Positions 1-63,444 of a DNA stretch of 64,000 nucleotides are shown one piece after another (position 1 is the stretch's first letter; the number at the start of each line of letters is the position of its first letter). Where the stretch lies: positions 7,750,001 through 7,814,000 of the forward strand of contig NC_135260.1 in assembly GCF_964204865.1 (NCBI RefSeq), in the 5' to 3' direction. The notes below the pieces were generated by a model. It saw nothing but the letters and a program-made list of their open reading frames with translations, made no database searches and had not been told where the DNA came from. Both the position numbers and the translations under genes were made by a program. The DNA comes from Styela clava (Eukaryota > Chordata > Ascidiacea > Stolidobranchia > Styelidae).

Positions 1-4326
<4,326 letters not shown>

Positions 4327-19943: not shown

Positions 19944-21891
19944 AAATTGAATTGTGTGATCTATTTCTGGTCATTACCCAACTAGACACAATAGCTCAAT
20001 GAAATTTAAAACTCGAAATTTTAAAGTAAAATTTGACGAAGTCTACTTTTAAATGAACAATTGACCGCAAATAATTAACATGCAAATCGACAAAATGCGT
20101 TGGTGTATGTGATTAAAAAGACAAAATGGATCGATAAAATGAGAATAGTAAAACATAATTGATAGTAACACTTTTTACAAAATATCATATTTCACTATGG
20201 TGACTCTTCAGTCTAGTTCCCAAAATCCACCTTGAGTTCATGACACAATAACATTTGATGTTCCAGCAGCTTTCAACCAGAATAAATTTGATAAAAGGGC
20301 AGAGTGAATATTACCAAATTATCAGTTGCATTCAAGTACAACGGTAAAGGCAAATAATTTACTTCAGTAAAATCGTGTAAATTTCGAGAAATCAACTCAA
20401 AGGCCAAACAAAGCATAGTCGACAAATTATCAGCAAGACAAATATTCAAGTCATAGCTCAGTTTATCTCTGATTTAAGTCATCTGAAGTGAAGCAAATGC
20501 AAAACCATGGTATAGATCGAATGCAACTATACTATATAATATGATACTTCTAATGTAATTAATTAAGTTATTGCTGAACTGCTTGTCGAATCGTTGATAT
20601 ACACCTCAGTAAAAGTTCACGTTTTACAAGAAAAAAAATTGTAAAATGTTCAATAACAAATCTAATTTATTTTAAAAGTACGATTTAAGATCACCAATTA
20701 CAGGCCACTCAAATATTTAGCATTTCATTTCAACATATTCATCAGTTTTCCATACGTTCTAAATTTTGTTGTATGGACAACATATTAACGATATTCATCA
20801 CGACAGTGTGAATAGATTGAGTCCTTGTTTAATCAGGTATTAATTTTTTTTTTACTGCTTCAAATAATAAAACACGCCCGAGAAAAAGTAAAAACATACC
20901 TCTTCATTGATTAGTGGCAAACATAAACCTATTAGATTCGTTTTTTTATGTCTATTTCAAATAATAATAAACATGAATGTACATGAAGTACATGAATGTA
21001 CATGAATTATTGCTAGTCTAAAATGTTTTAGCGGGTTATCTCTAGGCTCAGACCAGAGATTATATGCCTCTTCAGTGGCTGGCCAGATGAGCTGTACATT
21101 ACCTATTACATAACCTTAGAGTGTAATATTTACCCCTGTGTAGCGACAATCGTCGCATGTTTGCAAATGTATTTACTCCAGCAGTCTACAGTCGATATTT
21201 CTTCGTACAACGATGATCCATACAATTGTCAAATCCCGTAGCATATCTAAATAGAAATACTTTTAAATTTCTTAAAATATGTAATACGTTTTAAGTAAGA
21301 GGTTTCGCGCATGCTCTCAATTTTGTACAATGAAGCATAAATGATTTGTGCTAAAAATTAAATGCTATGAAACGCGTGTTGCTAACGAGATATTCATATT
21401 AGTACCAAGAATGATAAAAATCATTTTTAAAACATCGTTGATTGCAATTACGGGTAGATGAACGGAACCTATATACTAATACTGATATACACCTACATTT
21501 TGAATGCAACAGATCACCAAATTACAAATGTGTATTAAACAAGAAATATTGAGCAAATGAAAAAAAGAATGTCACTTCGGGTAAACAAGCGCCGCTTGAT
21601 TAGTTCGTTAAGTTTGTATGCTTATCTGATTATTTTAAAAATCTTGTCTCATCTGGTAATCAAACTCTGGCAAAGTCAAGTTTTAAATTTAGAATTTAAA
21701 TTGGATTTCATATAAAATTTTCATTTTATCTCGAAAGGTCCATGCTTCAACCATTTGATTATGTTGTTAAAATTCGCTACCCCCAAAATCTCGATTTGGC
21801 GGAACCCCACAAGGTATATAATTCGTCATTTATGAAACATATATATAGCGGCTCGATATTTCTATTTTATTAATCAAAAAACATCTGCTTA

Positions 21892-22050
21892 CCTTAATGT
21901 TGCGTCAAAAGAGTCAATGACTACGTTGAATAGCCCGAGCTCCTACATAATAGACAATCCGTTTGTCATCGCGCACCCCAGTGACTGGTTGAGAAAAGCG
22001 ACGCGCTTCTCCACATTCCCGCTTAAACTGATTAGCGATATCACATAATT
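21892..22050. other. Ambiguous open frames in the duplicated unit
   Basis: On the minus strand a frame reads FKRECGEARRFSQPVTG to a stop, after an acceptor-like CAG; another reads ELGLFNVVIDSFDATLR between TATGTAG and GTAAGC. On the plus strand IIDNPFVIAHPSDWLRK is open to a TAA. They overlap and cannot all be coding. None matches a family I can name with confidence. The same sequence recurs 3373 bases downstream. Confidence 0.2.
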
Positions 22051-22600
22051 AATTAACTGTAATCAAACTAGAAAACGATCGGAGAAAGAATTGAGTAATT
22101 ACTCGGATTACATGAGGTCGATCCCTTGACCCGTCGATATCGTGCATCTGGAGAGGTTTTGCGGAATGCTTGTTGTTACACGATGCAAATTTTGCTTGGC
22201 ATGTGATTAAGAAATGGTAAATATAATCCTTTGGTTAGGGTATTCGAAGTTTAAGTACGTTATTCATTTTCCAACGTAAAAGTGGGGAACCTAAATTTAT
22301 CTTGAAATCAGTGATATTTAATTGAGGCAAACTTTTCGAATAATATACTGCTACTGCTAATCTAAACCTGGGGATTTCCTTATAATAGCTTTATTCCTAG
22401 GGTTACGCTTGACACATGAGTATGATGCCAGACTGTACTTGACTTTATGATTGCTAGTACGTGAGTAAAGCTCGCATAATGGTGCTATTGGTTTCTAATA
22501 TGCCCGAGTTTGTTCTATACTGTGAATAAAAATAAGGTCGTCTAATTCTAGTCATAAACGCGAGACTTGACCAATGTGCAGTATGTTTTGTACATCGAAG

Positions 22601-22984
22601 TCAACGTAGCTTAGTTTCATTTCCGTCCCGCAATTCTATCGAGCAAATCTCATCCTTCATTTTGTTAATCCTATTAGTATCGTCTATTAGTCGCTCGAAA
22701 ATCTTGTACTCGTTGTCGGAGTTATACTCTTTCTGAAAATGAGAAGCCGAGTAGGCTAGCAGACGGAAGTCGTATGCTTTGCGTTCCTCGAGAACACATC
22801 GATAAATTTAATAATAATTATTTTTTAAATCATTATGAATTTTTGACCGGTCTATGACAAGTTGAGTTACCAACTTTGGCAAATTTTTATAACACTGTGA
22901 ACACACACATATATAACATATGAACTACTTACTGGTTTAGTCAGCCAGGCTACTCCTATTACGAGACTGAAATAAGGTTCATAC
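22601..22984 (-). CDS. Unrecognised gene, last two exons (copy 1)
   Basis: Exons 22984-22933 and 22732-22601 have consensus sites (CAG acceptor, GTAAGT donor, TTTTCAG acceptor) and join in phase. The product ends YEPYFSLVIGVAWLTKP, then KEYNSDNEYKIFERLI and a highly charged tail to a stop. YFSLVIGVAWL could be a membrane helix. The upstream exon must end with two bases of a codon; I could not find it within the repeat unit. I do not recognise the family. Splice consistency, absence of stops and an acidic/basic helical tail argue for a real gene end. Confidence 0.45.
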
Positions 22985-23316
22985 CTGAGAACAGAAATTC
23001 ACAATCATATGTAGATAAAATATGGAAAGTAATGCAGTTGTATAGTTAATAAAATTATCAGCTTGTTTTCTTGTTATGCTAACTACCGATGATTTCTCTT
23101 TTATCGTCGTTGCTTCTATTATTTATGTTAAAAAAAAGTGTCTTTTCGCCGATATATTTTACAAACAATCGTTCCGAAACAGAGAACACACAAAGCTTTT
23201 TCAATTACACCAACTATTTCAGTCCTCTTCTGTAGTTTTGGAATATTCTGAAGTGGGGTGATCTTGTTTTCAAAGCCTCAAGTACCGTGAAGCTGTGACC
23301 GTATTGAATTGACCGT

Positions 23317-26300
23317 AAATTGAATTGTGTGATCTATTTCTGGTCATTACCCAACTAGACACAATAGCTCAATGAAATTTAAAACTCGAAATTTTAAAGT
23401 AAAATTTGACGAAGTCTACTTTTAAATGAACAATTGACCGCAAATAATTAACATGCAAATCGACAAAATGCGTTGGTGTATGTGATTAAAAAGACAAAAT
23501 GGATCGATAAAATGAGAATAGTAAAACATAATTGATAGTAACACTTTTTACAAAATATCATATTTCACTATGGTGACTCTTCAGTCTAGTTCCCAAAATC
23601 CACCTTGAGTTCATGACACAATAACATTTGATGTTCCAGCAGCTTTCAACCAGAATAAATTTGATAAAAGGGCAGAGTGAATATTACCAAATTATCAGTT
23701 GCATTCAAGTACAACGGTAAAGGCAAATAATTTACTTCAGTAAAATCGTGTAAATTTCGAGAAATCAACTCAAAGGCCAAACAAAGCATAGTCGACAAAT
23801 TATCAGCAAGACAAATATTCAAGTCATAGCTCAGTTTATCTCTGATTTAAGTCATCTGAAGTGAAGCAAATGCAAAACCATGGTATAGATCGAATGCAAC
23901 TATACTATATAATATGATACTTCTAATGTAATTAATTAAGTTATTGCTGAACTGCTTGTCGAATCGTTGATATACACCTCAGTAAAAGTTCACGTTTTAC
24001 AAGAAAAAAAATTGTAAAATGTTCAATAACAAATCTAATTTATTTTAAAAGTACGATTTAAGATCACCAATTACAGGCCACTCAAATATTTAGCATTTCA
24101 TTTCAACATATTCATCAGTTTTCCATACGTTCTAAATTTTGTTGTATGGACAACATATTAACGATATTCATCACGACAGTGTGAATAGATTGAGTCCTTG
24201 TTTAATCAGGTATTAATTTTTTTTTTACTGCTTCAAATAATAAAACACGCCCGAGAAAAAGTAAAAACATACCTCTTCATTGATTAGTGGCAAACATAAA
24301 CCTATTAGATTCGTTTTTTTATGTCTATTTCAAATAATAATAAACATGAATGTACATGAAGTACATGAATGTACATGAATTATTGCTAGTCTAAAATGTT
24401 TTAGCGGGTTATCTCTAGGCTCAGACCAGAGATTATATGCCTCTTCAGTGGCTGGCCAGATGAGCTGTACATTACCTATTACATAACCTTAGAGTGTAAT
24501 ATTTACCCCTGTGTAGCGACAATCGTCGCATGTTTGCAAATGTATTTACTCCAGCAGTCTACAGTCGATATTTCTTCGTACAACGATGATCCATACAATT
24601 GTCAAATCCCGTAGCATATCTAAATAGAAATACTTTTAAATTTCTTAAAATATGTAATACGTTTTAAGTAAGAGGTTTCGCGCATGCTCTCAATTTTGTA
24701 CAATGAAGCATAAATGATTTGTGCTAAAAATTAAATGCTATGAAACGCGTGTTGCTAACGAGATATTCATATTAGTACCAAGAATGATAAAAATCATTTT
24801 TAAAACATCGTTGATTGCAATTACGGGTAGATGAACGGAACCTATATACTAATACTGATATACACCTACATTTTGAATGCAACAGATCACCAAATTACAA
24901 ATGTGTATTAAACAAGAAATATTGAGCAAATGAAAAAAAGAATGTCACTTCGGGTAAACAAGCGCCGCTTGATTAGTTCGTTAAGTTTGTATGCTTATCT
25001 GATTATTTTAAAAATCTTGTCTCATCTGGTAATCAAACTCTGGCAAAGTCAAGTTTTAAATTTAGAATTTAAATTGGATTTCATATAAAATTTTCATTTT
25101 ATCTCGAAAGGTCCATGCTTCAACCATTTGATTATGTTGTTAAAATTCGCTACCCCCAAAATCTCGATTTGGCGGAACCCCACAAGGTATATAATTCGTC
25201 ATTTATGAAACATATATATAGCGGCTCGATATTTCTATTTTATTAATCAAAAAACATCTGCTTACCTTAATGTTGCGTCAAAAGAGTCAATGACTACGTT
25301 GAATAGCCCGAGCTCCTACATAATAGACAATCCGTTTGTCATCGCGCACCCCAGTGACTGGTTGAGAAAAGCGACGCGCTTCTCCACATTCCCGCTTAAA
25401 CTGATTAGCGATATCACATAATTAATTAACTGTAATCAAACTAGAAAACGATCGGAGAAAGAATTGAGTAATTACTCGGATTACATGAGGTCGATCCCTT
25501 GACCCGTCGATATCGTGCATCTGGAGAGGTTTTGCGGAATGCTTGTTGTTACACGATGCAAATTTTGCTTGGCATGTGATTAAGAAATGGTAAATATAAT
25601 CCTTTGGTTAGGGTATTCGAAGTTTAAGTACGTTATTCATTTTCCAACGTAAAAGTGGGGAACCTAAATTTATCTTGAAATCAGTGATATTTAATTGAGG
25701 CAAACTTTTCGAATAATATACTGCTACTGCTAATCTAAACCTGGGGATTTCCTTATAATAGCTTTATTCCTAGGGTTACGCTTGACACATGAGTATGATG
25801 CCAGACTGTACTTGACTTTATGATTGCTAGTACGTGAGTAAAGCTCGCATAATGGTGCTATTGGTTTCTAATATGCCCGAGTTTGTTCTATACTGTGAAT
25901 AAAAATAAGGTCGTCTAATTCTAGTCATAAACGCGAGACTTGACCAATGTGCAGTATGTTTTGTACATCGAAGTCAACGTAGCTTAGTTTCATTTCCGTC
26001 CCGCAATTCTATCGAGCAAATCTCATCCTTCATTTTGTTAATCCTATTAGTATCGTCTATTAGTCGCTCGAAAATCTTGTACTCGTTGTCGGAGTTATAC
26101 TCTTTCTGAAAATGAGAAGCCGAGTAGGCTAGCAGACGGAAGTCGTATGCTTTGCGTTCCTCGAGAACACATCGATAAATTTAATAATAATTATTTTTTA
26201 AATCATTATGAATTTTTGACCGGTCTATGACAAGTTGAGTTACCAACTTTGGCAAATTTTTATAACACTGTGAACACACACATATATAACATATGAACTA

Positions 26301-26677
26301 CTTACTGGTTTAGTCAGCCAGGCTACTCCTATTACGAGACTGAAATAAGGTTCATACCTGAGAACAGAAATTCACAATCATATGTAGATAAAATATGGAA
26401 AGTAATGCAGTTGTATAGTTAATAAAATTATCAGCTTGTTTTCTTGTTATGCTAACTACCGATGATTTCTCTTTTATCGTCGTTGCTTCTATTATTTATG
26501 TTAAAAAAAAGTGTCTTTTCGCCGATATATTTTACAAACAATCGTTCCGAAACAGAGAACACACAAAGCTTTTTCAATTACACCAACTATTTCAGTCCTC
26601 TTCTGTAGTTTTGGAATATTCTGAAGTGGGGTGATCTTGTTTTCAAAGCCTCAAGTACCGTGAAGCTGTGACCGTAT
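23317..26677. repeat. Tandem duplication, copy 2 (3361 bp)
   Basis: Direct repeat of 19944-23304, apparently identical. After 26677 the sequence diverges at once (ACCAAGTTT versus TGAATTGAC in copy 1). The lack of visible substitutions means either a very recent duplication or a false duplication in the assembly. Confidence 0.97.
25974..26357 (-). CDS. Unrecognised gene, last two exons (copy 2)
   Basis: Exons 26357-26306 and 26105-25974, identical to those at 22984-22601. This copy still has unduplicated DNA upstream, so if the gene is real it is the likelier one to be attached to its 5' exons, while copy 1 would be an orphan 3' end. Confidence 0.42.
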
Positions 26678-26906
26678 ACCAAGTTTATCACGCGTGCCAG
26701 GGCGTTATTCACCCCAGAGTAAAAGAGAATAGATTTTTTTCAGTCAGGAGGGCGTTTGTCAATGGAAAAGAAGTCGTCCAAATTCGCTGCTGGAAAAATG
26801 TTTGGGAAACACTGATCTACCATATAATCTCTGATAAGCAGTGTTAGTTAGATAATTCATATTGTACTCACCGTCAATGTCAGTAGTTTCAAAACTCTAG
26901 AATTCC

Positions 26907-28857: not shown

Positions 28858-31800
28858 TTATTCTATGTCGTCATCAATGATCGATTCATCTTCTTCAATA
28901 TTTCTCTTTATTCTCCGCCCGATGATTTTCTCACAATTCTCCGTTCTTATGCCTTTGGGTTCCGCAACTTTCATAGCGAGATCATTTTCAGTGATGACAT
29001 GACCGGCTGTTAGTTTGTGAGAGGCTACGACAGTTTTTCCAAGCTGACAATGTAATGTATTGATGGATACATGAAATATGAATATTTCTCTTATTTCTAG
29101 AGGTATGCATTTGTTGAATTCATAATAAAATAAAAACTGCTATTATTTAATTTTCAAATTATGCACTGCTATACTTCAAGGCAAATCCTAAACGGTCAAA
29201 ACTAACTGTAATTTAATGAGGTAATTCCTGCTTGTTGAACGAACGTGCTTTTAATAAGTTGTAAGTCGGTTTAAGTTATTTTTTATTTTCCTCACATATA
29301 TATTCAAATCACCTTCAAATAACACGGTTCTTCACTTTTTCTGATCTTCTTTTCTGTTGTCCCCAGTGCTTTTTCTACTGTTCGAATATCCTCAACCAAC
29401 TGTTTCAGCTCACGAGGTTCAAGTGATGACATGTGATCGTTACCTTAATTGAAAATAAGCAGTTTCTAAAATAGATTTGAACGTGAATTTTGAACAGTTA
29501 GTTTTAAAAGATATTTTCCGTCTAATACCATAATTAATTTCCAAATTCATGCAATTGCTGTGAGTAAAGTTAACTAGGAATAGCATACAAGTAAAACTAC
29601 TTTATTTATGAAGTAACCTTTCCAATTCTTGTCCAAAGTAACGTGTCGCTCAACAATCTTAGCTCCCAGTGTAACAGCCGCTATTGTTATTGCAGTTCCT
29701 GCTTCGTGACCGGAATATCCAATGGGTACTTCTGGAAATTCTGTTTTGTAGGACTGTAGAAACCAACAAGATTTCAAGAGTTACGTATCAGATTGAACGG
29801 GAACGTTTTAGTGGTTAGAAGTGGGAATACGAAGGCGAATTTGCGCGGCAGGCGAGGATATTTCAATTTTGTATTGAAAAGCGCTTCAACAATCGATTCG
29901 TGAATGTGCTATGCATAAAAAAATACAACAACTAATTTCAATGTTTCAGTCATGCAATTAATAAACATTTGACTTTTGGGGCGCCACAAAGCAAACTAAT
30001 GAGCTACATATTTGTGGCTCCGTGTTGTTGTGATAGCGAAATTTCTACTGAAATCACAGCTAGTTTACCTGAGCTTTTCATCAAATGTGTAGCATGTTTT
30101 GGGTATTAGGGTGCATAGTGGAGGTACCCGATAAAAGGTAAAATTCTACCTGTATCACACGTAAATGCGTATCTTCTACTGGTTGTGGATAGGTGCTTGT
30201 GCACTGTAGAATGCTGAATTTGGGGTTTATCTTTTTCATTCTTTGATAAACTTCTCTGACCGTATCCATGTTCTGCATGCCAGTTGATATAATCAAGGGT
30301 TTGCCTGGTTGGATTATATAATGGTTTCAAATGTTTGGATATATTCAATATGGCTCTATGTTACAATACCTTATACCGAAATGGATTACATCCCACTTGC
30401 CATGTTGTTATGAAGCTACCATGAGCAAAATTTATTTGAATATCCCCCGTAAGGAGAGCTTTATTAGTCATTCGCCATTATGCGTGTAACTCTAACGTCT
30501 AAATCAAGTGTAGAATAGATTTTTAAAATTATCCTCATAATGAGTAATACAACCTGCAAAATCAAAGCTCTCGGCATTACAATGGCACAATAACGTTCCC
30601 ATAAAACATACCTTTAGAAGCAGCATGTTGAATGAACTGGTAATTCCCTGCATCGACTGAAGCTATTTTGAAGAAAGGTACCCCGATTCTATCAAGAAGG
30701 TCAATGGATGACTAAAACATGATTGGTGATATTAGTAATCGAAAGAGATTTAAAATATGCTCAAAGCTTCCTCACCTCGCTAGTCGCCCATTTTGTCATC
30801 ACCTTTTTGTAGGACAGAAAAGAATTTACCTAATTATTCCAGGGGAGAGGAAAGTGGTAAATATGTTTGTTAGTCAATAGAGACTGCTGAATTTACAATT
30901 CACGAAAATAAAAAAGTCTTTATTGAGCACAGACGAGATTTTCAATTGATATCGTACCCATAAATGACCAGAGGAAATATTCACAGATATATGTACCCAC
31001 CGCATCCCCAGCCGATGAACTGAAAATAATTCCTATCTCATTTGCATAATTTCTCAGATCAATGAACTGTTCTTCAGTAAATTCAATAAATGCTTTGTGT
31101 TCACCATATGTGGCTCCCCATGAGTGCTTGCTACATGTGAATAAAAATAAAGTATGGGTGTTGATTTTTATATAAAAAGAAAAGCAGCAACTGAGGTAAC
31201 TTTGCAGCTTGTTGTTTCATTTAAGATCGCGTTATAGTGTTTGGTATATATGGTAGTCATAAATATATTGCTAAGAAACAGTGGGTATTCGCCCCTTACT
31301 GCGGTTCCATGGAAAACTCAAGTGAAAGGACTTTGTTTATTATTTGAGTACCCGAATAATAATCATTGGACCAATAAAAAAAAAAAATTGGCGCATCGAA
31401 CATCAACATTGTTTATTTTATTTCAATTGCTTTGGAGATTTAGAGACTGATCTTCATTTCAAGAATGTAAGCTACTTACCCACCATATTTTATGGCATCG
31501 TAATCAAGGCAGTTTTAATTCTCAATTTTCGAGGGGAGGGGTTTAATATCTTTGCGAATAGTCTAGTATACTCGCATGTTAATCATATCACTTTAGGGCG
31601 CTCCAGAAGTGTGTGTACCATTATAGAGGTAACAAATTTTGTTTGTCTACTTTACATCAAGTTGTGTAAATGGACTGAAATCTATGGGCAGGGGTATATT
31701 CACTTGGCTAACACAGACAGTCTCCGAACTTGCAATAGAACTAAAATAAGAGAAATCGGAATAAAATTATGGCCTAACCCCCTATACACACTACGGGAGT

Positions 31801-49296: not shown

Positions 49297-52200
49297 TCAC
49301 ATATTTGCCATGTCATCTTGCTTCCGTATTCCTGCGGTTGGTGATTGTTGAATCCCCACGCCGATTGCACTCTTTCGAGTTCCTGATCTTCTATGAGCTT
49401 CCATTCGGTCGATTTCATCTAACATTAAACTTGTGATTATCAGTTGATTTTTTTAACTCATTAGAAATAAAACTCAATTAATAAAATATATAATTAATGC
49501 ATATATATATATATAGCAAGTTTTTAATAAAAGGCGAAATCAAATCTAAGATATGCTTTACCTTTCACCCGGCGCCTACAGAATGTTGAACTTAATTTTT
49601 TCAATACAACTGAAGGCTCCAAATAGTAGATTACTGGATTAAATGCACTGTTGATGGGGATCAAGAAAAGAGAAATTGCAAGGTAGCCATCCAGTGATAT
49701 ATCAATGCCTAAATGAATATGTGAAAAAGCGATAAACATAAAATTGATTGTATATATATACGAAAATATGCAAGATAGTCGAGATAGTTGATAATATGAC
49801 AATTTCGGTGCATAGAAGGCTATGAATACAAATCTGCTGAGTAATTTTGAAATGATAAGAATAAGTTATGCGTATAAAAATACATTAATTTGGTGGATTG
49901 GGAAATTTTCGACTTGAGATTAGAGTATTTATTTATCTTGCAGAAATGAGGTGGAAATATTTGCTTATTATTAAAGTGTAAAGTACTTGGCTACGTACCT
50001 CTCAAGTAAGCCAAGTGGGAGATTTATTTCAACCTACATGGAAAACAACTTGAACCGTGCTTTTGAGAACATGGGCGCAACTATTTGCTCATTATTGCAG
50101 TATAAACTATAGTTTACTGGGTATAAAGCACAAGCCAATCGTCAATATAGCCTTTCCACCTACCGATCACTTGTAAAATTCCCATAATGCAAACTGGCAT
50201 CCAGCAGCAAAAGTCCGTTAACAAGATGAAGCTGATTTTTTTTTGCAAAGCCTTAGATCTGCCTGAACTAGTTGATTCCACGGCTAGGTTGGTTTCTACA
50301 GATTTCCTTAAAACACAATAATCTTTACATCTGTTGTAGAAATATTTTATCAATTATATTTCGACGTTATTATGTTTTTAATTACCGGTAGGCAAGATAA
50401 AAACGCAGATATTTTAATCAATAATCTGCAACATATTGATTTATGCAGTCAACTATTTCAGATCAAAATGGTTGTCTCGTCCTAAACTTGCAAAAATAGA
50501 ACATTGTTTTTCAACCTATGGGTCGCGTCACAAAACTGGGTCGACTCAAAATTCCCTTGGGTCCCTTGTTTTTCCAAAAATTTCATTTATTGATTTAAAT
50601 TTATATATATTGAATTTGTTTATTTGATTTTGATTTGGTATTGAAGTGTTACTCAGTTGTATATGTGGGAAGTATGTCAGTGTGAAGACGTCGGAAGGAT
50701 CTATTTTGCTCAAGTAAAGCCACACTACGGGTTTAAACTTGCTGAGAGCAAACGAGCACAATATTCCTAACTTTAAAGTAATTTCTGGTAAAATAAATTT
50801 CATGTAAAAACGATAGTTTTGTATTATTAATCAAATTTTTTGCCATACAAGCACTACATACCGCATATAGTTTAACAAATCCTTCGGTCGCGTAATTTTA
50901 CAAAATTTCTTTTTTAAACAATTTGGGTCGCTTGAAAAAAAGATTGGGAACCATTGAACTTGAAGTAGACATACATCTGTTTACCTGTATATTATGACGT
51001 AACTAATGAAAATAACGAAGAAAGAGGAGAAATTTATCAACATAAATATGAGCGAATAACCCCATGATTTGTTTGTTTTGGGGTCCGGGAGCAAACGAGG
51101 GAGACAAACGCTGTGTGCTGAGTAATATCCAAATTTCTTAACTATTGTGTAGTTTGGATTTATTTGCATTGCAAAATGTTCAAGCATATCCCAGGATCCA
51201 GTAATTCTGAAAAGCAAAAGAATAAAGCACATATATATAAGAATTGTTAAATATTTTGTAGAACGATTCTTTGGGAAAATAGCAATTGTCAGGATATTGT
51301 AGAAAGTAGCAGAGTACCCCCGTTTTGAGCTGATCATCTTTACAGTGTTAAAAGAATTCACACCTTGTTGTAGTAACAGCTACCCTGCCAATATCTTCCT
51401 AACTTGACCTTTCGGACAGCACGTTATGGACCACCGGGAGATTTGAAAGTATAGCATGAGAAACAGCTGATAGAATGATTTAAAATAACTTGTGAGTCTA
51501 AAAGGAAACATCGTCTGAATACGAGCTCATCTATTTTGACACTTTGATGACCCATAATAGTTGAACTGAACAGTCATCTATCTATTGCTCTGTGTTTCCT
51601 CAAAAATAAAACCTAGCCTGAATTTTAATAATAATTTTAGTAATAAGACCTCCCCTTAGAATAAGACCTAGTGGAGATTTTAACTTGGTTGGCAAATTCG
51701 TGGAACAAAATCACAGACGACTTTGTTAATTAACAACGCACTGAAATCGGTCTACCTAGATAGGAAATTCTCATTCAATGAGGTCTTTATAGCTCGACAT
51801 GAAACTGTAGGTTCAAATATTTGCCAGAAAATTCAGTTTAATAAAATTTTCGTTCAAAATTTATGAATTTAGTGACTTGCGAGACATTCCAATGGAGGAT
51901 GATATGGCCTTTTTTGGATTCTATGTTTAGCAGCTTTTTTTAAAATAAAAACGTGTTATTTATAAGTAAATTTATACCGGTTTTCCTATTTTGTGTATTT
52001 GAAAATCTCCTAATTCTTTAACTCTGTAATTATGTTTTAAAAAAATGAAAATAAAACATCCCCCGAAAATAAGCCCCAGTGTTATTTTTTGACAGAAAAT
52101 TGGGGGAAACACGGTAATGTAAATGTTCCATTTTCACCCATTGATATGTTTGAATTGACACTTATTAGATGGTTACGTCTCCTTCAATTGACGATAATTT

Positions 52201-55200
52201 ACATCAATTGATCTAATTTGATTTAAGGATAACGATGGTAAATGGATGTTAAAATGTAAAATCGTTTACGTGGAATTATTATTGTTGATAATTCCTGTCA
52301 CGAGAAACCAATTGTTCAGTTCATCAACTTCAATACTTTTGACAGTTGCAAAAAACGGATTGTCAGCAAACCTGTAACCAAGAAAACATAGTTCGTTTGT
52401 ATTAGGCTATTAAATATAGGAATGGGATAGATTTTTCACTCGCAGTCTAGTCGTTTTAAATCATGACATGAATTGGTATGTATATAAATCTTTTCTACTC
52501 TAATTCGCATTTGGGATAAATCAAATACATCTTTCATTCCAAAACTCTATATAATTTTATAGGGAAAGTCAACTAGTCCTATAGGCTGTGAAAAACAGTT
52601 ATCAATAATGAGAATAGAGTTTTAAAATGAGACTTTAGACGACCTGGATATATCGTTTCGAATACGGAATTTCTATTCATGCAACATTTTCAAAAATTGA
52701 CTACTGGCTTAGACCAGAGTAGGAAAAAAATGGAATTTTCATATTTGGGCTATTCCAAGTGACAGTACAGGACAATTCCAGAAATTTAGCATGTTGTTGG
52801 ATGCAATATATTTTCACATTTTCAGCTACATGTTTTGTTTCATTTTTCAATCAGTTGCTTTATTGAATAGGTAAAAAATTGCACAAAAATTACACCCAAG
52901 ACTTACTTAGTAGATACAAAAATATAGTAAAATATAGCGTGACACTACAGAACGGCAAATCCACCATGCACTAACAGTACGTTGTGTTGTGCTGTAAATT
53001 TTTGCGATGGTACAGCAGAAGCCCATGATATTTTCTGGTACAGTAGCCGAACAACCCATCTATGTGTTGCTCAAGTTACTTAATGTAACACTGTAAATCC
53101 ATGTCAATAATGTGCATATTGTATGTGACACTACAGGACATTTTTCCACTTCGGAATAGCGGCCTCTATCATCTCTTAAAATTCTGGTAATAAATCGTTA
53201 AATGGGTGAAGAAATGTCCTACAGCACTGCAAACATTTAAACTTTATTAACCTAAATCCAGTGCGTCAATTTCATATGAAATAACTGTACCACACAATCA
53301 AACACTTTGTGTCAGGAATCATCACAAAATATGTCAATTACACCAAAATTTCTACATTTCAGGCCATTTTTTATAAACCATCAAAAACCTGGGTGAAATT
53401 TTAAATGGTTCGATGAAAAGAATGCAGTCCAATAAAATTCCAATGCCTTTTGATATCAAAAATAAAAAAAAATACTTTCACTACACTTTTTGAAAAATTG
53501 ATGGAATTCAACTTTTGCTTGGAATGGCCCATATATATATATATTCCGAGAAAGAGGAAAGCCGATAAGGCGGCTTAATCATATGACGAACCAATGCCCC
53601 TCGTCCGGTTACCACTTCCTGTCGGGTATGCGAGTAGCTAACCAGTTATTATTATTTATTTTATTTTTCGGAAGCATGGACTTGATGTTAGAGGAAGCCG
53701 CACTTCCGCAATAAAATGAATGACGCAATAATAAAGTCCGCCACACCACACGTACCTGACACTATCAATGAAATAATCTTCAAAAACTGCAAAGGGGAGT
53801 AGCGGAAATAAGGCAAGGATGATTGAAGTAATCCAAGATAATGCTATAATTTTAAAGAACCAATTCAGTGGAAATCTCTCGAATGATCTGCAAAGTTGAA
53901 GATTGTTTTATAATTAACAAGAAAACATGAACAAAAACAAACCGGTATTTATCTTCGGTATTTTGGTTTCGCATAGTTCGTTTCTTCGAAAGCTTCAAAA
54001 CATGATTTCACTTTTGCAAAAATGAGTTTCATGTGATTCAAATAGCATGCTTGCTTATGGTATAACTAAGTTTCCCTTATGCTGCTTTTATAAACATTTA
54101 AAATGTAATATAAAAAGCCAAAGTTGCATTTTGAATTAAAGACGAATGATCACAACTAAAATCTCCTGCATTTAGTTACAAAATTGGGTACTCCCGTAGT
54201 GTGTGTACCATGTTCGGGTTAGGCCATATTTTCATTCCGATTTTTTTTTTTGGTTTTATTACGAGTTCGGGGACTGTCTGTGTTAGCCAAGTGAATATAC
54301 CCAGTAGTGGGATTCAGCCGGTTTGCACCGGCTCTATATAACCGTCTCACGAAATTTTATGAGATCAGCGAACCGGTTAGCATTACATGACTTTTTTGTA
54401 ACAGAACCGCCTGAAAATTCGACATTTGTATGTGGAACCAGCTGACAAAAAATTTGAATCCCACCACTGAATATACCCTGCCCATAGGCTTCTGTCCCTT
54501 TACACAACTTGATGTAAAGTATACGAACAAAATTAGTTACCTCCATATTGGTACACATAATTCTGGAGCGCCCAAAATTGTATCAAATTTGACTTACTTT
54601 AATATTGTTCTTGATCTGAAAGAACTAAGCAAAATTAATGTAAAAACTGACGATTCTGAACCGATGACTAAAATAGCTCCGAGAGCTGAACAAGTTATTC
54701 CACTTCGCCATTCCTGGTCCTCTTGGCAATAATGACCGGAAGATATATGAGATTGGATGCAGATAGAAAGGTTGTATATCTGATAAGCATGAAAATCGGA
54801 AAAGTTATGAAGATAGGATTTTCAAATGTATTCCGGGGGAGAAGAAGGTCGATATGACGACTTTATCATATGACATACTACGGCCTCTGGTCCGGTTACC
54901 ATTCAATGTTGAGTAAGGGATTACTTAGCCAGATGCATGAAATTGATGGTGGGAAAAGCCGTAACCGACCAGCGATTACGTGAACCACTCTACAGCAGTG
55001 AGGAGTCCAGAAATCCTTTTGCACATAATTACCCTTCACGGTTTTCAAACTCACACAGGGTAATCGGAGGTGCGATAGCAAGCGTACTTCTAACACTTAA
55101 CACAATTCACTATATCGCCGAGCGCATAACATTTCTCATAATGAATAAGGTATAGCTTCGACTTTAAGAAACACATGCTTACCCCAACTAATAGATCAGA

Positions 55201-58200
55201 AATTGAAAGGTTCAACAACAGCAATTTATTTTTTCGTTCGTTTCCTTTTGGTCTCCCCCGTCGACAGAAAAAATCATGAACAGAATAGATGATGACAAGA
55301 ATATTTCCTACAACAGCTGATATACCTGGATGAATATACAAATACACTATTTTAAATATTTCCACCCTCTACATTTTCACTTTTATTGCAATTGAAGTTG
55401 TGCCTGTGCGTGTCCGGATTCCGGAGTATTCAACGTAGAAAATCGCGCCACAGGACATTTTGCTGCCTAGGAAAAGTCGTCGCAAGAGCATTTTGCTCTA
55501 AAACAACTATTTGTGATAACAGTTCGAAAACAGTTATGTTTATAAGGTTAGGGTATGCTCTTGAATAACGTATCTTATTTTTAATAAAAAAGTACTTCGA
55601 AAACCTAACTGTTTTTATCACAAATACTTGTTTTACAGCAAAACGGCTCATGTAACGATTTTTCATGCGGCAAAATTCCCTGCTTGTATGCATGGCTGCT
55701 GCACAATCTGCAGGAATAATAATTTAAATTAACACACGAAATATTGATAAAATTATATCGAACATGAAAATACTTACTAATTATCCATGCTGCTATCAAA
55801 AAGTATTTATTTTCAATCATATATTCTTCGTTTGAAAAAACGCTGTTTGTGCATTCTTGACGACATTTCACTTCATCTTTCCCACTGGTGCAATCCTTGG
55901 CCCCATCACAGGCCTAAATTGAGTCGGAAATTATCCGGTACTCTCGAAGTATGTGAACCAAGATGGCGGACAACGGAACGTAGTATGTGTACCACGTTAT
56001 GGTTAGGCCATTATTTTATTCCAATTTTTCTCAATTTAGTTCTATTACGAGTTCGGGGATTAGGCAAGTGACACCCGTAGTATTTGTACCCAGAATTATG
56101 GCCTAACCTTAACCTGGTACACATACTACGTTCCGTTGTCCGGCATCTTAGTTCACATATTTCGGGAGTACCAATAATCCAATACATTCAAAGAAAGCAT
56201 TGCAATAAAATGAGATTGAATAATTATCTTTTTTTATAAATATATTTGGATCTGTGGATTAAAATTAAAAGCATATTCATATTTTCGATGTTATTGCAAA
56301 TTTATTTGTAAAATTAGTATATTTTTATTGGTATTGCAAGCTTCATCACAAATTGCCATTGCCGCATTAGTAAATATCAAACAAAATTGCTATTCAGATC
56401 ATTCCGATCACGAGTCATTAACTTTAGAAATGATTCGAACCTTATTTCTGTTTATGTATAACACTTTCCCGCCATCTTCGCAATAAAAATGTGTTTCATC
56501 AGTACAGTACATTTCATCGCTATCGTCTTCACAATCCTGAAAAATCAAATATTACTAATTAATTAATTGGCGCTCTAGAAGTATGTGTGCCAATACGGAG
56601 GTAACGAATTTTGTTTGCTTGTTTTACATTAAGTTGTGTAAAAGAACTGAAACCTATGGGCAGGGGGGTGGATATTCACCACTTGGCTAACACAGACAGT
56701 CCCCGAACTCGTGATAAAAAGGAGTACCAATATTTTACCACACTACACAATTGTATCGTATACAAATGCAAGAAGTATGTTGAAAATAAATTTAAAACAA
56801 AATTTTATTTTTTTCAATATTTTTGATTTGTTTTCCCAGATTTCTTTCAACTTCATTTTATAAATAAAATACTTCTACTTTCCGCATACGAAAAAGCGAT
56901 TCCAATTTTTATTAGTCTTCTAATGAAATTTATTAGCAATAGTTTATATTTGTCATTACAATTTTTTACTCTTCCGAGGTTTTTCTTTTTTTGGTGTGTG
57001 TATATTTTACAGTCCTCACAGTTACTCTATCCTAATTAGGTAATTTTCCAGTTGATTAATTTTCTCTCCACAATTTTATTGTGATTGTGATAAATTAGTA
57101 TTAATTAACGTCACTTTAATAAGAGTCACCTAATAAATGTTAAAATTGAGAATATTCTTTTTATATAGATAATGATACTAATAAAGGACGATATAGGAAT
57201 CCTACCTGAATCGTGTCACATAGTTTTGAATCGGGAATGTTGATCGGTAATCCGCTTTTACAGTAAAATCTGAATGAGATTATGTTTGCTAATTTTGATA
57301 GAATTCGATCGCATTCAATCATTATGCTCAAATATACTGTATATTATATTTCATAATAAACGGCATATTTGGTTATCCTTTCTACAAAGCTCCAGTAATT
57401 TTTTATTTACAAAAATCTTCAAATTATTAATATAGAGAAAAATGGAGAAAAATAAAAGTTTTGATAAAAAATGACGGCGCTCCAGAAGTATAGGCACCAA
57501 TATGGAGGTAACTCATATTGTTCGCCTACTTCACATAAAGTTGTGTGAAGGGACAGAAACCTATGGGCAGGAGGTATATTTACTTGGCTAACACAGACTC
57601 GTAATAGAACTAAAATAAGGAAATTCGGAATAAAATTATGATCTAACTGTAATCTGGTACAAACACTACGGGAGTACCAAAAAGACTTAGTAAAGAGGTA
57701 ATGAAATGTAATTGAGAAGACTGATTTGTACAACGTAAGATAGAAATTAGCGACTGATGTATTGGGAAAGATCAACAACATTTTTCAAGAGGAACGGTGG
57801 CAGAAAGATAATATACGTTATAAACTATATAGTACGACGGGTTCAAGTTTGCTTCCAAACTAATAGTTTTTAGTTGTTGTTTAAAGCATCCTTAACAGCT
57901 ACGTTATAGTTAGTTTTTGTCATATTTTTGAACTAAAATAGGTGAGCATGCAATTACCTCTTTGGGCAATTCAACTCGTCGTTAGTTTTGGTCGTTTCAG
58001 TTCTGCAATCTCTATATCCGTTACAAATCTGGTAGCCAAACAATATATCCTGGATTTGACATTGGATCCATGGACCATCCATGTAGTGCCTCTCATCACA
58101 TTCCTTACATTTAAACTTGTCTTCTCTACTATCCCTGATAAAATTATTGAACAAGATTATCTGGACGGCAGAAATATGAGTGCGTGTTATTTTACTGGTT

Positions 58201-61200
58201 AACTTTACAATTACAAATTTGAATAATAATACAAACTTGGCTAATACAGACAGTCTCCAAACGCGTAATAGAACTAAAATAAGTAAAATCGGAATAAAAT
58301 TATGGTCTAACCCTAAACTGGTACACACAAAACGGGAGTACCGAAATATGAGTTCGTGTTGTTTTACTGGTTAACTTCACAATTACAGATTTGAATAGTA
58401 ATACAAACTGATTCATTTTATCAAGTACTAAATATTATTACCCAATATTAACACAAAATTGCGGTTTGTTCAGACATCCCTCACATTCTTCATATCGGAA
58501 TTCGGTGCAGAGAGGAATTCCGTCACATCTTGTTGACCATATCCCTGAAATTACATTTATATCCCATTACCAGAAATAGGTTGTGCTCAAAACATGACTC
58601 AACAAAATATGCCATGCAAACATAACAATCAGCAATAACCATATTAAATCAGGGCTGGCCAAGATAAACTGTCATGTTTTACGTCTCTTTTGTAGAAAGC
58701 CCGGCTAAATAAACACCCCCCCCCCCCCCCCACCGCTCAACTTAAAAAAGAGTAATTGTCCAGTTACAATTTTCAATCATTGATAGAATTCAGCGATGTC
58801 AGAATTAAATAAACGAACGCGCCGCGCTATTACTTAAAATAAGGCTGGCGCAATCCGCAGTACTTAAAACGTGGCGGGGATGTTTTACTCAACTCTTTTT
58901 GCATTAGTGGCGGGAAACTTTCTACGAATGCTCCCTCTCTTTCCTTTGTTCCCTTGCCGATTTTTTTTACCAAAGTTATTGACTACGAAGTGGGTATATG
59001 GATCGATTTGTTGAAAAGCTGGTATTATTAGTCTTGTTGTTGTTGGGGCGAATGCTTTGGTAAAAAAATTGATTTTCAGCGCAACCCGCACCACGGATGA
59101 AATTTGGATATGCCATTGACAAAAATAGATGGTCCAGTAGTCAGTACAATAATATATTTATTTAACAATGGAAGAAATCCTCGTGAAAAGTATAAAGACT
59201 CACGTTCGTTAGGACATTTGAAACCGCATTTTTCATCCGGTGAGCGGTTGTTCCCAAAACCTAAAAACACAAATAATTTTGCATATTGATTGGTGTGTGA
59301 AGTGGTGGATAAACGGCACTTCTACAAATAGCAAAACCTTGTTGGGGCCTTGAGGGAAAACGCGTTTTAAAATCCGTGTATTTGAAATTTTTATATACTT
59401 TTATATATTTTTATATAATTTTTATATATTTTCATATAAATATTATATTTATATTATTTTTATATCAAAATGTCTCTCTATTTTAATTCATTTGTGTTCA
59501 AGGTAACTCGCAGTTTCGGCGACTCATGTCAAAATAAACTCATTACCGATCTAAAATACCACGCCAATCCGCGGCCATATTAAATTTAGTTTTGATATAT
59601 ATTGCACACATGCGAATTCGTTGTCGTCATTGGAAAGATCTGGTATAATATCCCAGAAAGTATATTTGATTTAGTGCAGTTAAAATACATATAAAGTATA
59701 TTAGTAGATGAAAAATACATATTCATCGACTCGAAATCCCCGCGGTACGGCTACTGAGTCAGCCCTCGAGATTACGCCAGTCCATAAAAGAGCCGACTTT
59801 TTCAATCGATATGTAATGGTTTTTCTGTTGAATAAAATATTCAATCCATGACATATATTCCCATTTAGAATGGTTGCTTTAGTCATTTGATTGTGATCAT
59901 TTAAATCTGTGATTGCGTCGATAAAATAAAAGCACCACTACTCCAAAAACCACGGTAATCCGCAACCATGAAAATGTGTGGCAAAGTGCCCGATTACATT
60001 TTGCTTTGATTTGTATTCTTGCCAATTCACCAATATGAGCTGTCTCTGCAACTCTTACTCCGCTCTATCGCAATGCCGCCACTCGATTAATTTTAAGATA
60101 TCACCGTTACAGATATTCCTAAGTCTGCGATAAATACCACGGAGTAAAATTTATTTCAAGTCGGTAGCCGCAGGCACAAGGAGTTTATGAGATTTGCAAT
60201 GTCTAAGAAAGGGTTTTTAATCTGTCGCGGTCCACCTCAAAACAAAACTCATGGTGTTTTCCGTTTTATTTTTAGTATTTTATAATGCCGCTTTTACAAT
60301 AAAGAAATTTTTGGTTGCGGATTCACTTCTTTATTCTATCTTTAGCATCTCGTCGCTGATGATTATATAACAAAAACTAACTCGGTTTCCTCATAGGTGT
60401 CATGGTTCCATTCGAGAACAAAAAAAAAGTAATTATAATCGTCTTCGCGGCACAAGAATATGTCGAGGGAAATTTCTGATTTAGGGAGAATAAACACCAA
60501 AATCAAGATTTTTACGGCTTAAATAACACGCCATGCTGACGAAAACAATTGAGATTTAAATAAAATGCAATCGCAAACGCCTTAGCGACTTTATTTTTCA
60601 GCGGTCAAGGGCCGGGGAAACGTCCACATGTATGATAACTATTGAAAAATGAACTGCTTTTAAATTTACATAAATTCATTTGCACTTCTCCATTTTGTTT
60701 GAAACGTTAGGCAAGCCAAGCAGTCTGTAATTGTTGCTTATTTTTAACACACAGTAAATAATTTTCGCATTGCTCAATAGCGATGAAGTAAACAATTGAT
60801 TGAAATTTTACGTGTCTTATGTAAACGATTAAGCAAAAAATACATTAAAGTAATATAATACATAGGTTTATTGCGTGTTTAGTTTTACTTTACCAGGTTT
60901 TGCAAACTGAGCGAAAAAACGAGAATGTATGATGAATGCGAGAATGAATGCGTTTTATGCCTAAACAATTTGAACAATGACGCTATGAGACCAAGACTCT
61001 CATAGCGCCATCTTAATATATAGCAACCTGCCCATCACAAAAGCATTTTTTCAAAGCAAAATAGGGAGGACGCGAAGTTTGTAAAATTGTTCAAAGGGGT
61101 GCGCGGCTCAAAAAGTTTAAGAACCACTGTACTAGACCCAATATTTAGAAAATGATTTTTGTAAGACCATGAGATATAAGTTTATGATTCACGAGAATCT

Positions 61201-63444
61201 ACTTACTGATATGGACAAACTACGGCCCGCGGGCCAAATCCGGCCTGTTGGGTAATTGCATCTGGCCCGCCTGATGTTGTTACAAACCCAACTAAAACCA
61301 AATTTTGATGTTTTAGCTGAAACATTGCTCAATGAATTTGTTGACATTGCGATTAAATTTACTTTTGGCCTATTGGCACGAGGCCTATTTTCCGCATTTA
61401 GTTTTGTAACACTGTAAATATTGTTCATAAAATTTATCTTTTACGTCACACTTACATTGGTCCGAACTTACTTACCCCTGATCCAAAAACCTTGCCCACC
61501 CTTGAGTCTACTACATTCATGAGAAGGTATTTAGCTTGTACATATTCAGAAATTATTTTACCTGCAAGCAACGTCATCGAACCAATTTCAACTGATTTTT
61601 AATACCGTACTCAAAACTTTTGTGCAATTTGTGTTTGTAAACATTCGCATTGAATTCATGATATTTGAATTTATGATAAATTTTCATTCAATTTCCATGC
61701 CAATCGGTATTTGATTGTTTTCATAAATCAATGGTATACACCAGGGGGGTGCAACCTGCGGAAAGATTGTGCTGCCCGCGGAAAAGTGTCAATTTTGAAT
61801 GATGTGCGGCCCGCGAAACGAGTTTTTGATCCAGAACCCAATTTTGCCGGGAGAGCATTTAAGTGCTTATTAAATATGGTCCTAATATGATTGATGAGTA
61901 AGAGTTAATATCCTTTTTGTATACATCTTATCGTGGACTAAGTCAAAAGACTGAGTCAACACAAAAGCAATAATAAACTTTTGCGTCGTTTTCAAGCATG
62001 ATATATGCTTGTCCGAGTTTTATGAACCTTGGTTGTGCGTCACTCCATTTTTGGAAAAGTTTTATATCTGTAAGTATTTGAAATCTAAGATACGCACATA
62101 CGAGTATGTTGTTACTTGAAAGAAAGCTATTTGAGCAGGCCAGTAATCGTTTTAGCTCGTAAACAAGGTAATAACCACAATAATAAAGAAACACTCAGCG
62201 TCCTCGCTGAGAATTTCTCGCTATGAACCCGCTCTTTTGTTTCCTGAATATTTAGCGTTCTACGCCATCTGAAGCGGCATGTTTGGATTTGTCTGAAAGC
62301 TTACGTAATTGTCTAATTCAAGAGACTTTGTTGTCGAGTCAGTTTCGCTTGAATTGATCACACCGATGAACAATACAAAACCTTTTTCAAAAAAATTTTT
62401 TTCTCCCATTTACAACGCGCACGGTTAAGCGAATATCGCACGCATCAAAAGACACAACTGGCATAAAGCGGCAAAATACCGCTTTCCGATGAAATTAAAC
62501 TGAAGGTTCTCGCACGTTCGAACAAAAAGTTATGACATTTTTCAGGAGGGGTATACAAAATTCTCCAGCCAGAAAGGTTAGATTGGGTAATCTTCTAACT
62601 GCGAGCAATTCCAATTCCTTTGCGTTGTAAAGGTTATACTTATGCTCGTGCAAAGCGACCAACGCATGCCAAATTATCAAAAACGAAATTTTTTGTGCCT
62701 GCGACTGCCAGAAAGCATTTTTTAAATAAAGGTGCGGTCCGCGGTTTCACCCAGTTATTTGTATCTGGTCCTCCCTTATTGAAGGTCGCACCCCTGGTAT
62801 ACACAACCGAGTACGTAAGTGAAACTGAACACTTCAGGTCTCGGCGAGTTGTACATTGGGAAAAATTTCACGATTCGTGCAATGGCAATCTACAGGCAAG
62901 TGGTATTAAAGATTCAATATATACAAAAGTGATATTCATGTTCTCAACCATACCTATTGGACAATCGCTTGTGGCGTGGCATTTTTCTTCATCACTAGAA
63001 TCTGCACAATCATCTCTGAAACAAAAATTCATCAGTTGTTTACGTTAACTCGAATGTTTAACGTTTTCTTTTTTATGTCAACTTACCTCCCGTCGCATAT
63101 CGAGGCAGTAATTCGCGAAAGACCCCCGGTCCGTGGAATACATGCAAACTCTTGTCTCAGTCGGTTTTCTGAATCTAGATTTAAAATTATGTAACTAAAC
63201 TGTGAATCTATGACTTTAAATCTTTTTACTCACCCCATGAAAACTTAGCGTGACCGCAAATTGGTGGAATTGCTCTTTTCCTGCAAATACACTCGTCTGA
63301 TGCGTCGGGACAGTTTATTGTGCCATCACATACTTTACCATTAAGTATAATAGTTGGGTGGTTCAAACATCGGAAGCATTTATCGTTGAAAAACTCTATA
63401 ATAAAAACAGAACCGAATATTATGAGAATGCAACATTTCTGCAT
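49297..63444 (-). CDS. Relaxin/LGR-like GPCR with LDLa array and no visible leucine-rich repeats
   Basis: Exons on the minus strand: 63444-63234, 63174-63087, 63015-62954, 62889-62855, 59260-59204, 58544-58442, 58134-57958, 57269-57206, 56536-56441, 55913-55778, 55325-55183, 54779-54598, 53887-53756, 52371-52270, 51206-50985, 50306-50164, 49708-49562 and 49418-49297. All junctions fit except 62855 to 59260, where the phase implies at least one unseen exon; about 740 residues are accounted for. The start MQKCCILIIFGSVFII looks like a signal peptide. Then come about seven LDLa modules (CDGTINCPDASDEC, DDCADSSDEEKC, DCEDDSDEMYC, CDGAKDCTSGKDEVKC). TM1 follows within some 25 residues. TM2 NLSISDLLVGIY, TM5 region GYYSAHSVCLP, TM7 LIPINSAFNPVIYYLEP and the loops match RXFP/LGR receptors. 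TM3 ends FRS where EKY/ERW or DRY is usual. Confidence 0.9.
50502..50956. mobile_element. 455-bp hAT-like MITE in a receptor intron
   Basis: Ends CATTGTTTTTCAACCTATGG and the complement of GATTGGGAACCATTG, each with GGGTCGC just inside. Flanks only weakly similar (AAATAGAA, AACTTGAA), suggesting an old insertion. A truncated relative is at 28362. Confidence 0.75.
51590..52114. mobile_element. Possible element with TGTTTCC termini
   Basis: Left CTGTGTTTCCTCAAAAATAA and right GGGGGAAACACGG are imperfect inverted repeats, with AATAAGACC / AATAAGCCCC motifs inside. Similar terminal style to 6270-6708. Boundaries approximate. Confidence 0.45.
52746..53531. mobile_element. Possible 786-bp non-autonomous DNA element
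   Basis: Ends TGGGCTATTCCAAG and the complement CTTGGAATGGCCCA form imperfect inverted repeats. Inside, GTGACA(G/C)TACAGGACA-type motifs repeat three times. Lies in a receptor intron next to a TA microsatellite. Confidence 0.55.
53543..53735. repeat. Interspersed repeat, copy 3 of the SINE-like family
   Basis: GAGAAAGAGGAAAGCCGATAAG, TTAATCATATGACGAACC and GTCCGGTTACC match the copies at 54832 and 63626. Lies just inside the receptor intron before exon 53756-53887. Confidence 0.6.
54187..54572 (-). mobile_element. MITE (GGTACTCC/GGCGCTCC family) with a second MITE nested in it
   Basis: Ends GGTACTCCCGTAGTGTGTGT and TCTGGAGCGCC, flanked by a perfect CAAAATTG duplication (54179-54186 and 54573-54580). 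Removing the insert at 54302-54469 restores the family length. Its edge is only 11 bases from the splice donor of receptor exon 54779-54598. Confidence 0.93.
54302..54469. mobile_element. 168-bp CAGTGGTGGGATT MITE, nested copy
   Basis: Nearly the same sequence as 7339-7506. Flanked by AATATACC on both sides (54294-54301 and 54470-54477), proving insertion into the outer MITE. Confidence 0.93.
54832..55085. repeat. Interspersed repeat, copy 4 of the SINE-like family (longest)
   Basis: Carries all blocks seen in other copies: GGGGGAGAAGAAGGTCGATA, TCATATGACATACTACGGCC, GTCCGGTTACCATTC, GATTACGTGAACC, GAGGAGTCCAGAAATCC and GGGTAATCGGAGGTGCGATA. Suggests a family of at least 250 bp. Confidence 0.6.
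55937..56172. mobile_element. 236-bp foldback version of the GGTACTCC MITE
   Basis: Both ends derive from the same MITE end, giving inverted arms of about 75-80 bases (GACAACGGAACGTAGTATGT and its complement) that would form a long hairpin. Flanks AATTATCC and AATAATCC differ at one base. Confidence 0.85.
56569..56728 (+). mobile_element. GGCGCTCC-family MITE, shortened copy
   Basis: Starts GGCGCTCTAGAAGTATGTGT and ends AGGAGTACC, with internal GGCTAACACAGACAGTCCCC. The part before the right end is missing relative to 31597-31803. Located just upstream of a receptor LDLa exon. Confidence 0.75.
57476..57678 (+). mobile_element. GGCGCTCC-family MITE, near-complete copy
   Basis: Starts GGCGCTCCAGAAGTATAGGC and ends ACACTACGGGAGTACC. 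Flanks AAAATGAC and AAAAAGAC match at seven of eight bases. In a receptor intron. Confidence 0.85.
58170..58411. mobile_element. Partial GGCGCTCC-family MITE between 67-bp direct repeats
   Basis: The right two-thirds of the MITE (58232-58340, ending ACGGGAGTACC) sits between two related direct repeats, GAAATATGAGTGCGTGTTAT (near 58170) and GAAATATGAGTTCGTGTTGT (near 58343), each followed by TTTACTGGTTAACTT. This looks like a local duplication involving the MITE. Confidence 0.65.
58716..58731. repeat. C16 homopolymer
   Basis: A run of sixteen C in an AT-rich receptor intron. Such tracts are error-prone in sequencing, so its exact length is uncertain. Confidence 0.8.
59388..59465. repeat. AT-rich TTATATATTT simple repeat
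   Basis: Imperfect repetition of TTTTATATA(T)TTTTATATA-like units in the receptor intron between exons 59260 and 62855. Confidence 0.75.
61203..61500. mobile_element. Possible decayed hAT element
   Basis: Left part GACAAACTACGGCCCGCGGG with GGCCCGCC following, and a right part GCCCACCCTTG, resemble hAT termini that start with CAGGGGTGGGCAA-type sequence. No target duplication found. Confidence 0.4.
61742..62796. mobile_element. Non-autonomous hAT element, 1055 bp, in a receptor intron
   Basis: Ends CAGGGGGGTGCAACC and the complement of GGTCGCACCCCTG. Perfect GTATACAC duplication (61734-61741 and 62797-62804). It lies in the interval where one receptor exon is unaccounted for. No intact transposase. 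Confidence 0.92.

Follow-up and report, generated by a model that had tools for sequence, protein, structure and literature searches.

A predicted Styela clava receptor gene joining LDLa modules to a relaxin receptor-like 7TM domain without leucine-rich repeats

Locus and predicted gene

The window, i.e., the whole stretch of 64,000 nucleotides of Styela clava DNA that was analyzed, carries between positions 63444 and 49297 a chain of 17 exons, all on the minus strand, with GT/AG introns and consistent phases. The chain starts with an ATG at 63444, ends with a TGA stop at 49297 and encodes 736 aa without an internal stop. Since the exon borders were picked by eye and by script, the agreement of the phases is not an independent statistic. 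The product begins with a signal-peptide-like stretch, which is followed by an LDLa-type array, a 15-residue linker and a rhodopsin-family seven-transmembrane (7TM) domain with seven hydrophobic segments in the hydropathy profile. Judged from its sequence, 63444-49297 is very probably an intact gene for a receptor of the LDLRR-GPCR type, a class named in Ciona.

The ectodomain is rich in cysteine, with 36 Cys in residues 1-321, a stretch that includes the signal peptide. Exon a (63444-63234) provides the start codon, the signal-peptide-like stretch MQKCCILIIFGSVFII and LDLa module 1. The two halves of module 2 are encoded by exons b (63174-63087) and c (63015-62954), and degenerate modules 3, 4 and 5 by exons d (59260-59204), e (58544-58442) and f (58134-57958), all three of which are also present in an inverted neighbour copy of the gene. 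Exon f2 (57269-57206) was spotted by eye and then ranked second by score in a phase-constrained search of its gap; it contains the first half of module 6 and thereby completes this module, and 104 nt including its flanks are 100% identical in the neighbour copy. Exon g (56536-56441) holds the second half of module 6 and the first half of module 7. A further half-exon candidate between exons c and d (around 62892, DCHCTNREIFPNVQLAET) was rejected because of a stop in its reading frame. Here the alignment with the neighbour copy is at 85%, with one gap of 9 nt, and the stop is kept in that copy (by eye).

Against Pfam, the 736-aa product matched Ldl_recept_a with an E-value of 7.5e-12 in four stretches. 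When six pieces were scanned singly, modules 6 (1.5e-7) and 7 (4.4e-7) passed the Pfam cut-off and modules 1 (0.0025) and 2 (0.011) matched weakly, and the two pieces with modules 3, 4 and 5 gave no LDLa match against Pfam on their own. The first-pass annotation of this DNA, made from the letters alone, had counted about seven modules. The array itself is borne out; the count is generous, with four modules that match alone, two of them above the cut-off, and three that are degenerate or doubtful. Because modules 3-5 are degenerate, calcium-binding folds in them are doubtful. A PDB search with the last two modules (57269-56441 with 55913-55860) returned TMPRSS6 (2.3e-5) and also the LDLa pair of glucosidase II beta (0.0013).

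Exon h (55913-55778) runs from the end of module 7 (CRQEC) across the 15-residue linker into TM1, of which it encodes the first part. Thus, the LDLa array and the 7TM domain are joined inside a single exon, as had been read from the sequence at first pass. The remainder of TM1 is encoded by the next exon, i (55325-55183), together with ICL1 and the start of TM2. The remainder of TM2, ECL1 and TM3 follow in exon j (54779-54598). Exon k (53887-53756) encodes ICL2, TM4 and the start of an enlarged extracellular loop 2 (ECL2), exon l (52371-52270; 102 nt, phase 2 in and out) the middle of this loop, and exon m (51206-50985) its end with the ECL2 cysteine, and TM5. ICL3 and TM6 are encoded by exon n (50330-50164), TM7 with NPVIYY and the start of the C-tail by exon o (49708-49562), and the rest of the C-tail with the TGA stop by exon p (49418-49297).

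Elsewhere, the window contains a piece of a phosphoglucomutase-1 gene at 1-1548, a cytochrome P450 piece at 41338-41084 (6.3e-9), and a Menorin-like piece at 11900-12214 (0.0053) and a NeuB-like piece at 31216-30923 (0.0048), the latter two being under the cut-offs. A tandem duplication spans 19772-26798, with a period of 3373 bp and 93.8% identity over 3654 compared bases, one 300-nt stretch being 100% identical. Short dispersed or inverted MITE-like repeats lie in the introns of the receptor gene (56569-56667, 57476-57574, 54478-54572) and at 31597-31695, 3337-3431 and other positions. No copies of the window's repeats were found in the prokaryote and viral collections.

Relatives of the 7TM domain and search for LRRs

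The 736-aa product matched the Pfam family 7tm_1 with 7e-17, and a scan of NCBIfam gave no match. Rhodopsin-family features are present, i.e., seven hydropathy peaks, NPVIYY at the NPxxY position and aligned cysteines in TM3 and ECL2. The E/DRY position after TM3 (in 54779-54598) reads F-R (SSFRSR), not E/D-R, in the alignment. In the prokaryote and viral collections, 18 and 5 pattern matches, respectively, yielded no confirmed relative.

Among solved structures in the PDB, the 7TM part matched RXFP1 best (2.2e-16), followed by 8w1z (3.3e-16), LHCGR (1.7e-13) and FSHR (2.6e-13). Weaker matches were obtained for LGR4 (7.2e-10), TSHR (4.4e-9) and class A receptors outside the LGR group (4.5e-5 or weaker). 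The lead of RXFP1 over 8w1z was just 0.6 bit, and the two halves of the helix bundle favour different receptors: TM5-7 scored 48.5 bits with RXFP1 as compared to 28.7 with 8w1z, 21.0 with LHCGR and 15.8 with FSHR, and TM1-4 scored 38.8-42.4 bits with 8w1z, LHCGR and FSHR as compared to 22.6 with RXFP1. In an unrooted five-sequence FastTree tree, which left out LGR4, TSHR and GRL101, 8w1z, LHCGR and FSHR were split from RXFP1 and the window gene (support of 0.97). An unrooted 14-sequence FastTree tree likewise separated the hormone receptors 8w1z, LHCGR and FSHR from RXFP1 with ten tunicate copies (0.99); a further split (0.96) set the tunicate copies apart from these three receptors and RXFP1. 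Since the placement of the window gene was weakly supported in the larger tree (0.32) and the copy C8_16.2M fell toward RXFP1 and the hormone receptors (0.74), this tree is no proof of one tunicate clade. The 7TM domain had been called relaxin-receptor-like at first pass, which is in line with RXFP1 as the top, albeit narrow, PDB match, with both trees and with a paralogue (L035) that matched RXFP1 at 1.1e-23.

No LRR family was found in the 736-aa product by the Pfam scan. Likewise, no LRR was detected in stop-free pieces of at least 22 aa from the three minus-strand frames of 64000-55700; this is a weak test, since the gene's own LDLa exons reached just E 0.6 in such pieces. An LRR regular expression matched the minus strand of 64000-49250 once, in a stretch containing a stop, with a mean of 0.82 matches in mononucleotide-shuffled sequence.

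Paralogues elsewhere in the genome allowed the same question to be asked in ORFs, which were taken stop to stop. L035 is a single ORF of 808 aa with LDLa (1.6e-32) and 7tm_1 (3.5e-18) matches, L036 one of 724 aa (LDLa 3.2e-15, 7tm_1 1.6e-16) and L042 one of 666 aa (LDLa 1.5e-4, under the cut-off; 7tm_1 1.4e-11). Since these three paralogues carry both parts in one uninterrupted ORF, the LDLa-7TM fusion is independent of splice prediction. L047 and L048 are single ORFs with a similar layout (by eye), and all five, which span 666-808 aa, are possibly retrocopies or intron-loss genes. The scan also included two ORFs in which an LDLa pair precedes the 7TM domain, and two adjacent ORFs with LDLa alone. 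No LRR was found in the seven ORFs from five paralogue regions at E-values up to 1; as the ORFs were scanned without their upstream exons, this absence holds between LDLa and 7TM, not overall. Against the PDB, L035 matched LRP2 first overall, through its LDLa modules, and RXFP1 (1.1e-23) ahead of the other GPCR chains (2e-14 and weaker). Weak side matches in the paralogue scans, e.g., to a herpesvirus glycoprotein model (0.0019), were below the cut-offs and were taken as chance.

The first-pass annotation had seen no LRR between the LDLa array and the helices, for which the Pfam scan and the single-ORF paralogues now provide support. It had pointed to 59261-62854 as a stretch that might hide LRR exons; the regular expression stayed near the shuffle mean, and the neighbour copy has just 1.2 kb between the exons that bound this stretch. 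It had also considered that the LDLa and 7TM exons might belong to separate genes, and the paralogues encode both in one ORF. A receptor of the GRL101 or RXFP type with LRR exons that escaped detection or sit upstream of the window is highly improbable, the LRR scans having covered minus-strand sequence inside the window (64000-49250) and the seven paralogue ORFs. The upstream locus L031 was compared with the exons and the gene stretch of the window gene. Type C LGRs do combine LDLa with LRR, and short exons are hard to find, as the E 0.6 of the window's LDLa exons in the piecewise search illustrates. However, the chain starts with a signal-peptide-like stretch and the neighbour copy begins likewise, the last LDLa module is separated from TM1 by 15 residues within one exon, and the single ORFs of the paralogues have no LRR between LDLa and 7TM.

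Gene family, neighbour copy and ECL2

The 7TM query gave at least 114 matches in the genome, counts for large families being lower bounds. At least 51 genomic places, including the window gene and its neighbour, cover query residues 225-270 in the central 7TM part (by eye); these places are defined by the 7TM match, and LDLa and LRR were examined in a minority of them. The tunicate setting is reflected in a hallmark of this group on a 23.8-Mb contig: the single cellulose-synthase match in the genome (PF03552, 2.2e-4, 26.6 bits with a cut-off of 24.7; C9:16177457-16177855 (+)) and the single GH6 match (PF01341, 1.5e-6, 35.4 bits, over the cut-off; C9:16179895-16180164 (+)) are both on the plus strand with 2.0 kb between them (L044, L045), each with a modest score. 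Among 14 control genomes, none had GH6 matches and three, all bacteria, had cellulose-synthase matches. Cellulose synthase has been reported from all tunicates and no other animals (PMC6523144), and GH6 genes have been reported from tunicates (PMC7464555).

The neighbour copy (C14:7825880-7837054 (+), L033, L034) is inverted, lies head to head with the window gene and starts about 12 kb past the start of the latter. All 17 exons map to it, with two length changes (+6 and -3 nt), both multiples of three. The two copies differ at 81 of 2208 exon positions and at 629 of 8572 positions in introns and flanks (Fisher p 6e-11). Both the mapping of all exons and their lower divergence lend independent support to the predicted exon chain. 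The dN/dS ratio was 0.57 (NG86) or 0.70 (YN00), which is no more than mild constraint. The neighbour copy lacks a conserved acceptor before exon n, which weakens it as a witness of constraint. The dN/dS values, the missing acceptor in the neighbour and the three degenerate LDLa modules would all fit a window gene that is a decaying duplicate, no longer expressed or useful. On sequence grounds this is nevertheless unlikely, as the 17 exons, the splice sites and the frame of the window copy are all intact and the divergence of the exons is half that of introns and flanks.

The enlarged ECL2 is shared within the family. In the window gene, the TM4 proline is separated from the ECL2 cysteine by 83 residues. 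The same interval spans 81-92 residues in nine paralogues and 86 and 94 residues in two more, for which the proline was picked by eye. The measured paralogues are a non-random sample, comprising nine of the eleven places that match nearly the whole query (two copies on C19 were left out) and two single-ORF places; locus L032 did not enter the analysis. Thus, ECL2 was enlarged (81-94 residues) in all 12 tunicate copies measured, window gene included. In comparison, the interval amounts to 9-16 residues as counted in RXFP1, 8w1z, LHCGR and FSHR, with 16 in RXFP1, or to 12-16 once the 1-3 residues that are not visible at the joins are added for three of these structures. Relative to the four solved LGRs, the window gene carries an insertion of about 70 residues, to which exons k, l and m (53887-53756, 52371-52270, 51206-50985) contribute; exon l, with its symmetrical phase, lies wholly inside it. 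The insertion contains two N-glycosylation motifs, and the neighbour copy aligns across its 72 codons. No report of this loop was found among the papers listed in searches of open-access literature, an absence that is weak evidence. In Kamesh et al. 2008 (PMC2396169), the word 'loop' occurs just in background and references, and the passages with 'loop' or 'insertion' do not mention such an insertion. The enlarged ECL2 is the less expected feature of this gene and was not found in print among the papers listed.

Possible mode of action and comparison with known receptors

The sequence directly supports the predicted gene model and its architecture without LRR, as well as the insertion in ECL2 and the large size of the family. 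The best explanation, which we consider probable, is a tunicate LDLRR-GPCR with a 7TM domain related to RXFP1 and the glycoprotein hormone receptors, an LDLa-only ectodomain and an ECL2 insertion of about 70 residues.

In the absence of LRRs, ligand capture must sit elsewhere, and apart from the LDLa array and ECL2 no large extracellular part is left. The LDLa array might serve to capture a ligand, either a protein or a lipoprotein, that is large or positively charged. Lying 15 residues from TM1, the last LDLa pair could cap the helix bundle together with the enlarged ECL2, and this cap would turn binding into G-protein activation, replacing the LRR and the single LDLa module of RXFP1. This division of labour, in which the array would capture the ligand and the membrane-proximal LDLa pair and ECL2 would pass the signal on, is proposed tentatively.

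Alternatively, the gene may encode an RXFP-like hormone receptor that binds insulin- or relaxin-like peptides via the LDLa array or ECL2. Among solved structures, RXFP1 is nearest to the 7TM domain, narrowly for the window gene and clearly for L035, and GRL101 has been proposed as an insulin-like growth factor receptor, partly via its LDLa modules (PMC8286064). However, hormone binding by relaxin receptors is ascribed to LRRs (PMC8286064, PMC4837482), which are absent here, and at least 51 matching places would exceed what is expected for one hormone system. This alternative is thus rather unlikely.

Returning to the LDLRR-GPCR with an LDLa/ECL2 cap, its origin can be sketched with similar reserve. 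An RXFP-type receptor may have given rise to a large tunicate family in which LRRs were lost, LDLa modules were joined to the helices and a conserved ECL2 domain of about 70 residues replaced the LRR as a ligand-binding or self-activating element. If so, the family, with many of its at least 51 places clustered, may recognise many ligands, e.g., in immunity or chemical sensing. Its enlarged ECL2, found in each of 12 members, offers a testable clue. ECL2 also takes part in the activation of RXFP1. The LDLa module of that receptor is described as essential for activation, and hormone binding by its LRR domain is a hypothesis (PMC4837482). A family that naturally lacks LRRs could thus help to tell ligand capture and activation apart.

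Among known systems, RXFP1 and RXFP2 (type C1 LGRs) share the 7TM similarity (E 2.2e-16) and the LDLa module with the window gene. In contrast to it, they have an LRR ectodomain behind one LDLa module and a short ECL2. GRL101 of Lymnaea and its orthologues (type C2 LGRs) likewise combine an LGR-type 7TM domain with many LDLa modules (PMC8286064); by its description, GRL101 is set apart by the LRRs that it carries in addition to multiple LDLa modules. The glycoprotein hormone receptors and LGR4 share the class A 7TM domain of the LGR group (E 1.7e-13 to 4.4e-9) but have an LRR ectodomain and lack LDLa (PMC11863921).

The closest likeness is to the LDLRR-GPCRs of Ciona intestinalis. An unreported architecture, as implied by the first-pass annotation, is not what the gene represents, since Kamesh, Aradhyam and Manoj (2008; PMC2396169) described 14 Ciona "LDLRR-GPCRs" with LDL-A repeats (single or 2-10), a relaxin-receptor-like 7TM domain and no LRR. 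The suggestion of a lineage-specific type was right; the Ciona receptors represent a lineage-specific expansion in a tunicate (PMC2396169). The features by which they were defined, i.e., the LDL-A module, INSL3/relaxin-receptor-like TM helices, the missing LRR and the tunicate lineage, were all found here, and the predicted window gene agrees with the Ciona family in every feature tested. The genome of S. clava is larger (376.6 Mb, 379 contigs), that of Ciona being about one third of this size. Fourteen receptors with LDL-A and 14 without recognisable domains were described in Ciona (PMC2396169), as compared to at least 51 matching places (by eye) here. A further tunicate genome confirms, independently of splice prediction, a relaxin-receptor-type 7TM domain joined to LDLa modules without LRRs.
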